Of a stretch of 7,791 bases of DNA, positions 1,752-6,514 are shown in pieces. Numbering within the stretch: position 1 is the stretch's first letter; each line of letters opens with the position of its first letter. The position numbers and the translations under genes are program-made. The stretch lies in the NCBI GenBank assembly GCA_001803565.1, contig MHDQ01000065.1:1-7791 (forward strand), given 5' to 3'. Origin of the DNA: Nitrospinae bacterium RIFCSPLOWO2_12_FULL_45_22. GTDB taxonomy: Bacteria; 2-12-FULL-45-22. The notes beneath the pieces are model-generated. The model searched no databases. It saw only the letters and a list, made by a program, of their open reading frames with translations, and had not been told where the DNA came from.

Positions 1752-2642
1752 ATGATGCTTACTTTAATAGATGAGTTTATTGACTATCTAGCCATCGAGA
1801 AGAGACTCTCTCATAATACCCTGGAGGCATACCGGCGGGACCTGACCAAATTTGCTGCCAAACAAAAATGCTGTACTGATAAAGACCTTCTGCAGTTAGG
1901 ACGTAAAGATATAATGGTCTATCTCTCTGCCCTAAAGAAGGAAAGTATGGCTAATTCCTCTATGGCCCGGCATCTGGTAACCCTGAGATGCTTTTATCGT
2001 TTCCTGATAGCAGAAAAGGGATTAGAAGAAGACCCAACCGCTAATATAGACTCTCCTTCCCTCTGGAAAAAACTCCCTAAGGTATTGACCCATCAAGAGG
2101 TAGAAGCCTTATTGAATCAACCTAATACTAATACTTCCCTTGGTATCCGGGATGCGGCCATGTTAGAAGTCCTTTATGCTACTGGCTTGCGGGTTTCAGA
2201 ACTGATCTCTCTGACTATAAATGATATTAACCTGGAAGCAGGCTATCTGATGACGTACGGTAAAGGCTCAAAAGAACGGATCGTCCCTATGGGGGAATTG
2301 GCCATACAGCGGCTAAGGGACTATCTTTACCAGGTTAGACCCAAATACTCCAGGGACAGTAATAGCCCGACACTATTTTTAAATCGCTCCGGTAAAGGCT
2401 TAACCCGACAGGGTTTTTGGAAAGTGATCAAAAAACATGCTAAGGCTGCGGGAATAAAAGGAGAGATTACTCCCCATTGTCTACGCCATTCCTTTGCTAC
2501 CCATCTGTTGGGAGGTGGGGCGGACCTGCGTTCAGTCCAAAAGATGTTGGGCCATGCCGATATAACTACTACTCAAATCTATACCCATTTAACCAAAGAG
2601 AAGTTGCGAGATTTATATAATAAATTTCATCCCCGATCCTGA
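1752..2642 (+). CDS. xerD: Site-specific tyrosine recombinase XerD (XerC/XerD family)
   Basis: It resolves chromosome dimers by strand exchange at dif, normally with XerC and under FtsK control. The N-terminal SAM-like core-binding domain covers about residues 3-90 and the catalytic domain about 105-290. All catalytic residues are present: R147 in ATGLRVSEL, K171 in GKGSKER, H242 and R245 in PHCLRHSFATHLL, H268 in LGHAD, and nucleophile Y277 in TTTQIYTH. Their spacing is within two residues of E. coli XerD (298 aa). The GADLR after the HxxR box favours XerD over XerC, but one Xer protein cannot be assigned with certainty. Two tandem ATGs exist (1752 and 1755). The AGGAG at 1744-1748 is 3 nt from the first and 6 nt from the second, so 1755 may be the true start. 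glnD follows 78 bp downstream on the same strand. Confidence 0.93.
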   Translation: MMLTLIDEFIDYLAIEKRLSHNTLEAYRRDLTKFAAKQKCCTDKDLLQLGRKDIMVYLSALKKESMANSSMARHLVTLRCFYRFLIAEKGLEEDPTANIDSPSLWKKLPKVLTHQEVEALLNQPNTNTSLGIRDAAMLEVLYATGLRVSELISLTINDINLEAGYLMTYGKGSKERIVPMGELAIQRLRDYLYQVRPKYSRDSNSPTLFLNRSGKGLTRQGFWKVIKKHAKAAGIKGEITPHCLRHSFATHLLGGGADLRSVQKMLGHADITTTQIYTHLTKEKLRDLYNKFHPRS

Positions 2643-2647
2643 CACAG

Positions 2648-2702
2648 GTTGTAGGTTCTAAGTTCTAAGTTCTAAGTTCTAGGTTGGTTCAACCTAGAAC
2701 CT
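2648..2702. repeat. Heptanucleotide tandem repeat ending in a perfect hairpin
   Basis: Heptads of gttcta(a/g) run at 2655-2661, 2662-2668, 2669-2675 and 2676-2682, preceded by a one-mismatch unit gttgtag at 2648-2654. The last unit forms the left arm of a perfect 11-bp stem: gttctaggttg (2676-2686), a 3-nt loop (gtt), then caacctagaac (2690-2700). The first aggttcta (2653-2660) can pair instead with tagaacct (2695-2702). It fills almost the whole xerD-glnD gap. Confidence 0.85.
2676..2700 (+). promoter_or_regulatory. Stem-loop directly upstream of the glnD ribosome binding site
   Basis: The 11-bp perfect stem with a 3-nt loop ends 7 nt before the glnD Shine-Dalgarno GAGGAA (2708-2713). No T-run follows, so it is not a standard intrinsic terminator. 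In an xerD-glnD transcript it could protect the xerD 3' end or affect ribosome access to glnD. The structure is seen in the sequence; the role is inference. Confidence 0.4.
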
Positions 2703-2720
2703 ATTACGAGGAAATAATCT

Positions 2721-5348
2721 ATGGGTTTCGCTGGAGAGCGTATGGAATATATTGGTTTTTTGCGGGACTTTATCCGGCAAGAAAGGGACAAGATAAGGGA
2801 TAAGCACCAACAGGGGGCGGGAGGCAAAGAAATAGCTAATGATTACTCTTTATTGGTTGATAAGGTCATAGAGAAGGCCTTTGAGCTGGCTATCGTCTCT
2901 TCTGAGAAACCCTCTAATCTCGCCCTGGTAGCTATTGGGGGATATGGCAGGGCAGAGTTGTCCCCTTATTCGGATGTAGATATATTGTTTTTACATGCAA
3001 AAAAAATACCACCCTGGGAACAGGAGGTTATCCACCAGACCCTTTGCTTTCTCTGGGACGTAAAACTCCAGGTAGGGCATAGCAGCCGCTCTATCAGTAA
3101 TTGCATAGAAATGGCCAGGGGAGACCTCACCATCAAGACCTCTCTTCTGGAGGCTAGATATTTGCTGGGCTCTAAAGAAGTATTTGCTGAATTCTATAAG
3201 ACCTTCCAGAGAGAGATCATAGAAAAGGGGGCAAGGGATTTCATCAAACAAAAAATAGAAGAGAGAAATCAGCGGTATGCTCTATACGATACCTCTGCTA
3301 ACCTTTTAGAGCCCAATGTTAAAGAAAGCCCCGGTGGATTAAGGGATTATCATACTGTATGTTGGTTGGTAAGGGGCAGGTACCCTTCTGATACTATGGA
3401 AGGATTAAGCCCGGCCGGAACCCTATTCTCTGAAGAGCTGGAGGCATTTAATAAAGCCTATGACTTTATCCTGAGGGTGAGAAATGAGATGCATTTGACC
3501 AGCCAAAAAAAGAGCGATGTCCTGGCTTTACAGATACAAGATAAAATAGCTAATAATCTCGGTTATTGCCCAACGGGCCATTTTACCCGGGCAGAAACCT
3601 TTATGAAAGATTATTATATCCAGGCCAATATCGTAAAGAAATTTTCTTCCACGATCATTAACCGATGTCAAGAAGAGAGAGGGCTACGGAAGATGTTTAG
3701 TTATCTAGCTAAAAAGGAATTGGGTCATGGTTTATATGTATGGGAAAAGGAAATCCGACTGAAAAAGCCTACAGATAACATATTCCAGGAAAACCCCTGG
3801 CTGATCCTGGAGGTATTTGCCCTGGCCGGGCGGGAGAATCTTAGCCTCAGCGAAGAGTTAAAGCAGTTAATTAAGTCCCATCTCTATTTAATAGGGGATA
3901 ATTTCCGTGAGGATAGGGAGATAGCCCAGAAATTCTTTGCTATCCTTAAAGAGAAAAAGGCCGGAAAAGCCTTACGCCAGATGCACGAACTAGGTCTCTT
4001 AGGGCAATATATACCCGAATTTGGTGAGATAACCTGTTTGATCCAGCATGATCTCTACCATAAATATACCATAGATGAGCACTGCCTCCGGGCCATCGAA
4101 TGCTTAGAAGAACTTCCTAATACAGAAACGGCCGAGCTTAAGGGGCTAGCCCAAATCTACCAGAATCTCAGCCACCCGGAGATCACTAAGCTGGCCTTAC
4201 TACTCCATGATCTCGGCAAGAGCCAGGGCCCTAACCACGCAGAGATCGGGGCCCTTATGGTAAGAAATATATTAAAACGCCTATGTTTACCTGAAATAGT
4301 CAAAGAAAAGGTAGAACTGTTAGTTCATCACCATATCCTCATGAACCATACCGCCCAACGCCGAGACGTACATGACAAGGAAGTAATCAAACAGTTTTCG
4401 GAGGTAGTTAAAGATACCGATAATTTGCAACGCCTATATCTCCTCACTTATGCTGACCTGAAGGCCGTCGGGCCTGGAGTATGGACAGTATGGAAGGGGG
4501 CCTTGCTCTGGGAACTCTATCACAAAACCCGCGACTATCTCTCTAAAGGCGATGAGGAGGTAATTAGTGGGGAAGAGTTCCTGGAACGCTTAAAGCAAGA
4601 GTTATTAGAAGACCTGATAGATGAGGTGGAACCCGAAGGCATTGAGAGTCACCTGGAGCGTATGCCGTACAAATACATTCTCTCTACGTCAGTAGAGAAG
4701 ATAGCAGGACATATCCGCCTGATAGAAGCCTTACGGCAAAGGCATGAGGAACCGCTCTTAAGCTATCAGCACAATACCCAGATAGGCTATACCGAGATAA
4801 TGGTCTGTACTCATGATAAGCCCGGGATATTTTCTCAGATTGCTGGGGTATTGGCCTCTAAAGATGTTAATATATTAGGGGCACAGATATATACCGGTAA
4901 AGATGGCATAGCAATAGATACCCTTCAAGTAGCCACTCTTCAAGAGCAACCCCTATTAGAAGAAGACCTATGGCAGGCTATAAGATTAGAGCTAGATGCT
5001 ATCCTCCGGGAAGAGAAAAAAGTAGAAGACCTGGTTAACAAACGAAAGAAGGTCTTGTCTCCCCTTACGGACAAAAAGATCAGTGTACCTACCGTAGTCA
5101 AGCTAGACAACCGGCTCTCGGATACCCATACTGTCATAGAGGTCTTTACCCAGGACCGCCTGGGCCTGCTCTTTGATATTACCAATACCTTATACAAACT
5201 GGGTATAGATATCTACCTGGCCAAGATTTCTACTGAACTACAAAAGGCTATTGACGTATTCTATGTAACTAACCTGGCCGGTGAGAAGATTATGGATGAA
5301 GGAGAATTATCCAATATTAAAGAGACCCTCCTTGAGGTGTTAAGCTAA
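2721..5348 (+). CDS. glnD: Bifunctional [protein-PII] uridylyltransferase / uridylyl-removing enzyme
   Basis: GlnD senses glutamine, adding UMP to PII proteins when nitrogen is scarce and removing it when glutamine is plentiful. All domains are visible in its 875 residues (E. coli 890). The nucleotidyltransferase centre has GGYGRAELSPYSDVD at 73-87, with GG and the catalytic acids D85 and D87. The GlnD linker has ESPGGLRDYH (202-211). The HD hydrolase domain has HDLYHKYTIDEH (443-454), LLLHDLGK (493-500, HD = H496/D497), H506, HHH (536-538) and TYADL with D579. Two C-terminal ACT domains lie at about 691-765 and 803-873 and should bind glutamine. Every key residue is intact. GAGGAA at 2708-2713, 7 nt before ATG 2721, supports that start; ATG 2742 (M8) is a weaker alternative. 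No PII or glutamine synthetase gene is in the window. It lies downstream of xerD and may be cotranscribed with it. Confidence 0.96.
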   Translation: MGFAGERMEYIGFLRDFIRQERDKIRDKHQQGAGGKEIANDYSLLVDKVIEKAFELAIVSSEKPSNLALVAIGGYGRAELSPYSDVDILFLHAKKIPPWEQEVIHQTLCFLWDVKLQVGHSSRSISNCIEMARGDLTIKTSLLEARYLLGSKEVFAEFYKTFQREIIEKGARDFIKQKIEERNQRYALYDTSANLLEPNVKESPGGLRDYHTVCWLVRGRYPSDTMEGLSPAGTLFSEELEAFNKAYDFILRVRNEMHLTSQKKSDVLALQIQDKIANNLGYCPTGHFTRAETFMKDYYIQANIVKKFSSTIINRCQEERGLRKMFSYLAKKELGHGLYVWEKEIRLKKPTDNIFQENPWLILEVFALAGRENLSLSEELKQLIKSHLYLIGDNFREDREIAQKFFAILKEKKAGKALRQMHELGLLGQYIPEFGEITCLIQHDLYHKYTIDEHCLRAIECLEELPNTETAELKGLAQIYQNLSHPEITKLALLLHDLGKSQGPNHAEIGALMVRNILKRLCLPEIVKEKVELLVHHHILMNHTAQRRDVHDKEVIKQFSEVVKDTDNLQRLYLLTYADLKAVGPGVWTVWKGALLWELYHKTRDYLSKGDEEVISGEEFLERLKQELLEDLIDEVEPEGIESHLERMPYKYILSTSVEKIAGHIRLIEALRQRHEEPLLSYQHNTQIGYTEIMVCTHDKPGIFSQIAGVLASKDVNILGAQIYTGKDGIAIDTLQVATLQEQPLLEEDLWQAIRLELDAILREEKKVEDLVNKRKKVLSPLTDKKISVPTVVKLDNRLSDTHTVIEVFTQDRLGLLFDITNTLYKLGIDIYLAKISTELQKAIDVFYVTNLAGEKIMDEGELSNIKETLLEVLS

Positions 5349-5352
5349 AAAT

Positions 5353-5369
5353 CCTGGTAATTCCCCAGG
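5353..5369 (+). terminator. Small hairpin after glnD, possible weak terminator
   Basis: cctgg (5353-5357) and ccagg (5365-5369) form a 5-bp stem with a 7-nt loop, 4 nt after the glnD stop. Only a mixed pyrimidine stretch (tctcctt) follows, not a T-run, so efficiency would be low. Confidence 0.28.
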
Positions 5370-5378
5370 TCTCCTTCA

Positions 5379-5492
5379 TTGCAAAATTAACAATGTAAAA
5401 TTAGCAATTAACAACGTCAGGCAAAAGGCATTAAATCTTCGATTACTTCTCGACCCTATTATTTTGAAATGCTAATTTTGCATTTTGCATTG
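5379..5492. repeat. Degenerate A+T-rich heptad repeats in inverted orientation
   Basis: The left block has five heptads in register: ttgcaaa (5379-5385), attaaca (5386-5392), atgtaaa (5393-5399), attagca (5400-5406) and attaaca (5407-5413). The right block carries the reverse complement of the same pattern: tgctaat (5470-5476), tttgcat (5477-5483) and tttgcat (5484-5490). aaaattagca (5397-5406) pairs perfectly with tgctaatttt (5470-5479). About 56 bp of non-repeat DNA lies between the blocks. It occupies the convergent glnD/ferredoxin gap. Confidence 0.75.
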
Positions 5493-5500
5493 AAAGTGGG

Positions 5501-6514
5501 CTAGGCTGCCTGGGCTATCTTCATATTGATAGCTCCTGCCTCACACCCAACAACACATACCCCGCAGCCAAAGCAGTTTTCAGCTATAAGGGCTCCTTTC
5601 AATTTCTTCCCTTGGGGAAACTTCTTCATCTCTATTGCAATAAATGGGCATCTATCCACACATTCCTGGCAACCAATGCAAGCCTCTGGATCAATCACTG
5701 GCTGATAGCGACTCTTCAGCAAGGCATTTTTCACCGTACCATAAGCCACCCCAGGGTCTATCAAGGCACAGCAATCGGCACAGCAACTACATATTAAACT
5801 AAGGCTCGAGGTCACCATAGGCTGCATATGGACCAAGGCAGACTCTTCGGCCAGGGCATTGGCTTCCAGGGCCTGATCCAGCGTAAGCTTTTTCCCTGAT
5901 CCGCGTTTTATTGCATAGTCAGCCCATTTATTGAACTGGAAACAGACCTCCAGTGGAGCATCACAGTTCCTTAAGGGCACGCGGCAAGAGCAAGGCACTA
6001 CCGCAATCATTTCTGCCTCCCTCATAATCGTCTGCATATTTTCTTCTGGCAAGACATCTCCCTGTGACATCTGACTGCTACTCTCCAGGGATTTCCAGGC
6101 AGGAATAACCCGGGCAAAAGGCCGTTGCATCTTTCCCCACTCCTCCCCTATGTGCTTACGCCATTCTTTCTCATAAAATTCTTTCCATAAATCAAGAAGC
6201 TCAGCATCTATATATTTCTTTGCACTAGCTAATGAGGCATCATGCAACTGGGTTACTTCCCTAACGAGTCGAGGCCCTTTACTGGTGCTTACGGTCAACC
6301 CCCTCGCCATGAACTCGTCCATTTTCTCGCTCAAAGCCGCCTCAGTCATAGAGAATTTTTGTGCCAACTGCTCCGGCGCAGCCGGCAACTCTAACAGGAT
6401 AGCGGCTTCCTGTTCCGTCGCCATCTTCTTGAGTATTTTCATCAGATATTCAGAAGGTGGATAATTTAATCTTTCTGCCAGTTTCTTATATATATCGCTA
6501 TTAGCCATGGTCAT
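5501..6514 (-). CDS. Cysteine-rich two-[4Fe-4S] ferredoxin-like protein with a possible N-terminal winged helix
   Basis: The 337-residue protein has no signal peptide or membrane segment, so it is probably cytoplasmic. The C-terminus carries two classical 4Fe-4S motifs: CIGCQECVDRCP (C279, C282, C285, C289) and CFGCGVCVVGC (C314, C317, C320, C324). Ahead of them lie CSCRVPLRNC with a further Cys (C175, C177, C184, C191) and the dense ICSCCADCC (C242, C244, C245, C248, C249). This combination is familiar from ferredoxin-like proteins of anaerobes, whose exact function I do not know. Residues about 28-90 are predicted to form helices and a basic wing, resembling a winged-helix domain; residues 95-130 are charged and helical. 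Electron transfer or redox sensing is inference. Two starts are possible: ATG 6514 (3 nt after GGAGG) and ATG 6508 (9 nt after it, the more usual distance). It converges on glnD. The upstream porin gene is co-oriented but about 240 bp away, so a separate promoter is likely. Confidence 0.85.
   Translation of the reverse strand: MTMANSDIYKKLAERLNYPPSEYLMKILKKMATEQEAAILLELPAAPEQLAQKFSMTEAALSEKMDEFMARGLTVSTSKGPRLVREVTQLHDASLASAKKYIDAELLDLWKEFYEKEWRKHIGEEWGKMQRPFARVIPAWKSLESSSQMSQGDVLPEENMQTIMREAEMIAVVPCSCRVPLRNCDAPLEVCFQFNKWADYAIKRGSGKKLTLDQALEANALAEESALVHMQPMVTSSLSLICSCCADCCALIDPGVAYGTVKNALLKSRYQPVIDPEACIGCQECVDRCPFIAIEMKKFPQGKKLKGALIAENCFGCGVCVVGCEAGAINMKIAQAA

Follow-up and report, generated by a model that had tools for sequence, protein, structure and literature searches.

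Heptad-armed palindromes on both sides of glnD in a Nitrospinae bacterium: probable MITE-like dispersed elements with 7-bp slippage acting on the copies

Two heptad loci beside glnD

The question raised by this locus is why a single gene, glnD, has runs of 7-bp units together with inverted units on both of its flanks, with unit sequences that differ between the two sides. The sequence-only reading of the window (the whole stretch of 7,791 nt that was analysed) had explained this by a genome-wide process, such as strand-switching slippage or a heptad-generating enzyme, and not by a single transposed repeat. According to the present analysis, both loci are probably MITE-like dispersed palindromes, with 7-bp slippage acting on the copies. 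The features concerned are the following.

1752..2642, + strand: xerD-like tyrosine recombinase gene (Pfam Phage_integrase, E 3e-53), upstream neighbour of locus 1
2646..2686, + strand: locus 1 heptad array, GTTGTAG, then three times GTTCTAA and GTTCTAG (TRF period 7; imperfect-array scan)
2690..2703, - strand: locus 1 inverted heptads CAACCTAGAACCTA (a 14-nt inverted repeat with 93% complementarity)
2721..5348, + strand: glnD (Pfam GlnD_UR_UTase, HD, ACT), bracketed by loci 1 and 2
5375-5494: locus 2, whole element, a 120-bp noncoding palindrome with heptad arms, between genes
5375..5410, + strand: locus 2 left arm, 36 nt, in heptad register, with the end TTCATTGC (copy comparison)
5411..5461, + strand: locus 2 core, 51 nt (copy comparison)
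5462..5494, + strand: locus 2 right arm, 33 nt, containing ATTTTGCATTTTGCATT (arm lengths across copies)
5501..6514, - strand: 4Fe-4S protein gene (Pfam Fer4 families), convergent neighbour of locus 2

The heptad runs and inverted heptads on both flanks were real according to TRF and the inverted-repeat search (2646-2703 and 5375-5494), and the units of the two loci were confirmed to be unrelated. Locus 1 occupies the 78-nt gap between the xerD stop at 2642 and the glnD start at 2721. TRF placed its array at 2655-2685 (period 7, 4.4 copies, 95% match), and positions 2673-2686 and 2690-2703 pair as a hairpin with a 3-nt loop. The RNA fold of the locus has an energy of -21.6 kcal/mol (z -2.76 versus shuffles, single strand), and its 3' end is situated about 4 nt upstream of GAGG, the ribosome-binding site of glnD. 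The order of a run followed by its inverse, as originally described for both flanks, applies to locus 1 but not to locus 2, located between glnD and the convergent 4Fe-4S gene, where the inverted partner precedes the array (30-nt arms 5385-5414 / 5462-5491, 77% complementary). The ATTTTGC array in the right arm of locus 2 covers positions 5475-5491 (TRF, 2.4 copies, 100% match), and the RNA fold has z values of -2.3 (+ strand) and -2.8 (- strand) versus shuffles. A small separate hairpin, CCTGG...CCAGG, is present at 5353-5369 directly 3' of the glnD stop (fold -6.5 kcal/mol). The GlnD protein is at best 44% identical to named relatives.

Repeat periods and inverted partners

The period and partner statistics cover 940 kb of the 3.67 Mb genome, distributed among 81 contig stretches. 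A first sample of 266 kb, including the window, had 11 exact period-7 runs with nine or more matches, and a first-order Markov shuffle had none. In the 940 kb, 32 such runs were noncoding, versus about 4 expected for the whole sample; chance as the origin of the heptad runs was ruled out by the shuffles. The same count gave 0-10 runs for each of the periods 3-6 and 8-13, and 27 and 16 for periods 14 and 21, which are multiples of 7. Imperfect noncoding arrays of at least 21 bp numbered 39 for period 7, and 1, 1, 27 and 7 for periods 5, 6, 8 and 9, respectively. The pattern is genome-wide, as had been proposed, and period 7 is far above periods 5, 6 and 9, but period 8 also reaches a high count. 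Period-7 arrays were present at a density of 30 per 100 kb in noncoding and 2.5 per 100 kb in coding DNA. Also the expected excess of inverted partners was found: about 54% of the period-7 arrays had one within 120 bp, versus 3-5% with swapped and 1% with shuffled flanks, which is approximately a tenfold difference. Only 8% had a second direct copy.

The period-8 arrays belonged mainly to two families with other units, one resembling CACGAAGG and the other TAATGACC, and 63% of the noncoding ones (n = 27) had an inverted partner. The period-7 excess is thus real, yet the genome is not purely heptad, and a strictly heptad-making process is not supported, as these 27 arrays are likewise arranged with inverted partners. 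The array-plus-inverse layout of the families TAATGACC/TTATTGGG and CACGAAGG/CTTTGTGG can be seen at L075 3432-3497, L098 12324-12394, L010 9741-9824 and L021 1475-1582. At L071 4034-4149, TCTTTGC/TGCTCTT heptads form a long minisatellite that has a higher-order repeat of 21 bp and adjoins an assembly N run. Many hairpins are followed by the motif AAAATGRAAATTCCTATRC..TCAAGTTA (L014 1165, L057 10318 on the - strand, L098 10239 and 14 other places in the same genome).

One genome of the same order, G001 (GlnD 53% identical; 68% complete), was compared and was richer in period-7 arrays: its 41 kb of noncoding DNA had 73 of them, versus 0, 0 and 2 of periods 5, 6 and 8, and 57% had an inverted partner, versus 10% with swapped flanks. 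The units in G001 (GTTTTAR, TTAGGGR, AGCTCAT, AATTTGC) differ from those in the window, and the outer flanks common to the GTTTTAR copies form imperfect inverted ends. Heptad arrays were present in 48 of the 175 intergenic regions of G001, a density at which these elements have a large share in shaping its intergenic DNA. The motif AAAATGRAAATTCCTATRC..TCAAGTTA, with GGAAATTCC, follows hairpins also at many G001 loci (e.g. L118, L130). Four more distant genomes, each sampled on a small scale, had one period-7 array in total. Near glnD in 80 named genomes of other groups (46 kb noncoding), six period-7 arrays and none of periods 5, 6 or 8 were detected, which agrees with the published bacterial heptad excess. 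The word ATTTTGCATTTTGCATT was present in 11 of 192 genomes and its reversed control in one of 192. The cross-phylum TRACTGA test was positive only in the genome of the window among 98 genomes, and the reversed control in two.

Copies, arms and the origin of the palindromes

The right arm of locus 2 occurs in about 31 places genome-wide, and most of these copies have both arms. The view that no single transposed repeat is involved was not upheld, locus 2 being one of about 30 dispersed copies and the unit family of locus 1 having 127 exact pattern matches in G001. The locus-2 family has terminal inverted repeats, with TTCATTGCAAAATTA at the left end and the reverse complement of the right end starting with TTCAATGCAAAAT. 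The left arm is 36 nt long in 15 copies and 22 nt in seven; the right arm is 40 nt nearly everywhere, but the window copy, at 33 nt, is short by exactly one heptad, ATTGCTA. The arm lengths thus form steps of 7, the few rows with arms of 26 and 29 nt being elements of the same family read on the opposite strand, and one 33-nt row, L336, a premature cut by the search pattern. Since copies differ in arm length by whole heptads and the window copy lacks one, gain and loss of units, or slippage, acts on the copies. The core ranges from 15 to 162 nt, the commonest length being 15 nt. Some copies (L075 2350-2580, L006 1430-1490, L090 2850-2995) are enclosed in an outer inverted shell of CACGGATGAACACGG-like sequence, so that the palindromes are concentric.

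Right arms of different locus-2 copies were 95.5% identical, while the two arms within one copy were 79.9% identical and arms between copies 79.2% (permutation p = 0.15, 22 copies). The palindrome is therefore copied as a finished unit, and on this comparison of sequences the locus-2 copies have demonstrably spread with both arms preformed. Local strand switching or correction between arms predicts the opposite pattern.

The movement of preformed palindromes and the gain or loss of single heptads are both visible in one nested insertion. A filled locus-2 copy in L103 and the empty copies in L075 and L006 have flanks 100% and 97% identical with a 66-bp gap between them. The 66-bp insert is another heptad palindrome, located in the core and carrying TAGGA at both ends; it is the sole resolved insertion with a clear direct duplication, and none was evident around the copies of the locus-2 family or the GTTTTAR copies of G001. 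The insert palindrome has seven matches in the genome, and its copies in L308 and L309 have one TTTGAGC-type heptad more than those in L305 and L306. The two copies of the insert in L306 and L307 (G000:C302 4561-4630, 5484-5550) have the same flanks and are separated by about 923 bp on one contig, possibly through local tandem duplication. A CGTCATTCCGGGCTTGACCCGGAATCC palindrome, unlike the heptad families, is inserted at L072 2594-2736 relative to L088. Among the indels that distinguish dispersed noncoding copies from each other, 19 were of 7 bp, versus 8 of 6 bp and 4 of 8 bp (p = 0.0013); between copies in G001 there was no 7-bp indel peak. Slippage, as assumed in the sequence-only reading, is retained as a secondary process in 7-bp steps, seen in arm lengths and indels, but not in combination with strand switching.

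The status of locus 1 is less certain, because exact three-unit GTTCTAR arrays were found in the genome only at locus 1 and on one other contig. Its membership in a mobile palindrome family would follow from G001, in which several copies of the unit family have common flanks. Also the xerD-glnD gap of G001 contains a heptad hairpin, GTTTTAAGTTTTAAGTTTTAGGTTTTAGGGCTTAAAACTTAAAACCTAAAC, which belongs to a dispersed family whose copies have common outer flanks. With arrays in 27% of G001 intergenic regions, a hairpin in the same gap is not a rare coincidence; its presence in both genomes, although striking, is only suggestive, and orthologous conservation is not claimed. The comparison of conserved neighbours between the two genomes comprised 19 gene pairs only.

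In the favoured reading, of MITE-like palindromes with slippage of their copies, the elements would be about 60-250 bp long, noncoding and intergenic, mostly between co-directional genes. The palindromes of the locus-2 family were dispersed in preformed state, and another heptad palindrome entered the core of one copy, flanked by a short direct duplication. A transposase acting in trans may move the elements. The 7-bp period may result from bacterial slippage favouring 7 bp (Mrazek's hypothesis, as summarised in PMC4692102 and PMC4679880), and the presence of several unrelated units side by side would reflect that of several element families, to one of which locus 1 presumably belongs.

Replication slippage with strand switching, building a heptad run and then its inverse separately at each site, would account for the period-7 excess and the frequent inverted partners, and the inverted part of locus 1 is similar to the innermost heptads of the array beside it. 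The arm identities reject it for locus 2, however, and in L103 a whole palindrome is seen inserted elsewhere, so as a general explanation it is unlikely. Movement of REP/REPIN-type palindromes by a Y1 (RAYT) transposase is extremely unlikely: the palindromes are short, extragenic and present in many copies, and five Y1_Tnp matches were found in the genome, but the locus-2 ends TTCATTGC and GCATTGAA have neither the GTAG nor the CGTC tag, and G001 (68% complete), the relative richest in heptad palindromes, had no Y1_Tnp match. The direct duplication of 5 bp at the sole resolved insertion would not be expected of Y1 transposition.

Regulatory RNA hairpins conserved and selected at particular genes, for example as a glnD leader, are suggested by the hairpin in the same gap of G001, the closeness of locus 1 to the glnD ribosome-binding site and folds more stable than shuffles. 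This explanation is nevertheless very unlikely, as the G001 copy carries the flanks of a dispersed family in a genome where such arrays are common, no Rfam family matched in the window, and the arrays only tend to be close to the upstream stop without significance (p = 0.066 and 0.077). Gaps with arrays were co-directional in 28 of 32 cases in the genome of the window, compared with 342 of 454 among all gaps. A terminator role was rejected, as arrays were not in excess at convergent ends in G001. A more speculative idea, and a decidedly unlikely one, is that a trans-acting system in this bacterial order would read hairpin shape and not sequence, inserting heptad palindromes into palindrome tips and so maintaining many unrelated nested units in concentric shells.

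As regards the host, the dispersed palindromes are probably near-neutral passengers that form hairpins in intercistronic or 3' RNA; on grounds of economy, such a passenger role, with the RNA hairpins being incidental, is preferred. Locus 1 could be a putative modulator of glnD expression, and locus 2 a putative two-way 3'-end hairpin.

Comparison with known repeat systems

Heptads are the commonest class of long bacterial repeats, mostly intergenic and with a unit that differs by genome, and slippage has been proposed as their origin (Mrazek 2007, as cited in PMC4692102 and PMC4679880); the same two papers mention the period-7 intergenic STRR repeats of cyanobacteria. These LSSR/STRR repeats resemble the present ones in having more tandem 7-bp units than expected by chance, most of them intergenic, and in their variable unit number, here seen as arm lengths in 7-nt steps and 7-bp indels. 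In those summaries they are described as direct arrays, whereas here they are the arms of dispersed palindromes. The GGGAATC repeats of Xanthomonas are intergenic heptad arrays with variable unit number and 70-75 convergent inverted pairs per genome (PMC4692102); here, 54% of the arrays have a close partner. They consist, however, of one G-rich unit with G-quadruplex potential, while the units here are many, unrelated, nested and mostly A+T-rich, and GTTCTAA and ATTTTGC have no G-tracts. A Beggiatoaceae genome similarly contains numerous sets of intergenic heptads, but these are of one unit, TAACTGA, with 169 direct sets just before start codons versus one inverted set (PMC4679880); here about half of the arrays have an inverted partner.

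MITEs are likewise short, noncoding and dispersed with inverted ends, and one insertion with direct duplication was seen here, none being evident around the locus-2 copies; the arms of the present palindromes, however, consist of heptad arrays that vary in unit number. REP/REPIN elements, as outlined in PMC2817692 and PMC3116915, are also small extragenic palindromes in many copies, and on that outline they differ from the present ones in arms, end tags and direct duplication. The elements connect heptad microsatellites with small mobile palindromes, subjects that are usually treated apart. Together, the nested insertion and the stepped arm lengths (22/36 and 33/40 nt) offer a natural experiment in which dispersal can be told from slippage, and so a test of why bacterial slippage prefers 7 bp. 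A heptad excess and inverted heptad pairs are already published for other bacteria; new, within the literature searched, is that one genome has many unrelated units and that these form dispersed palindromes, nested in each other and with arms that vary in steps of a heptad.
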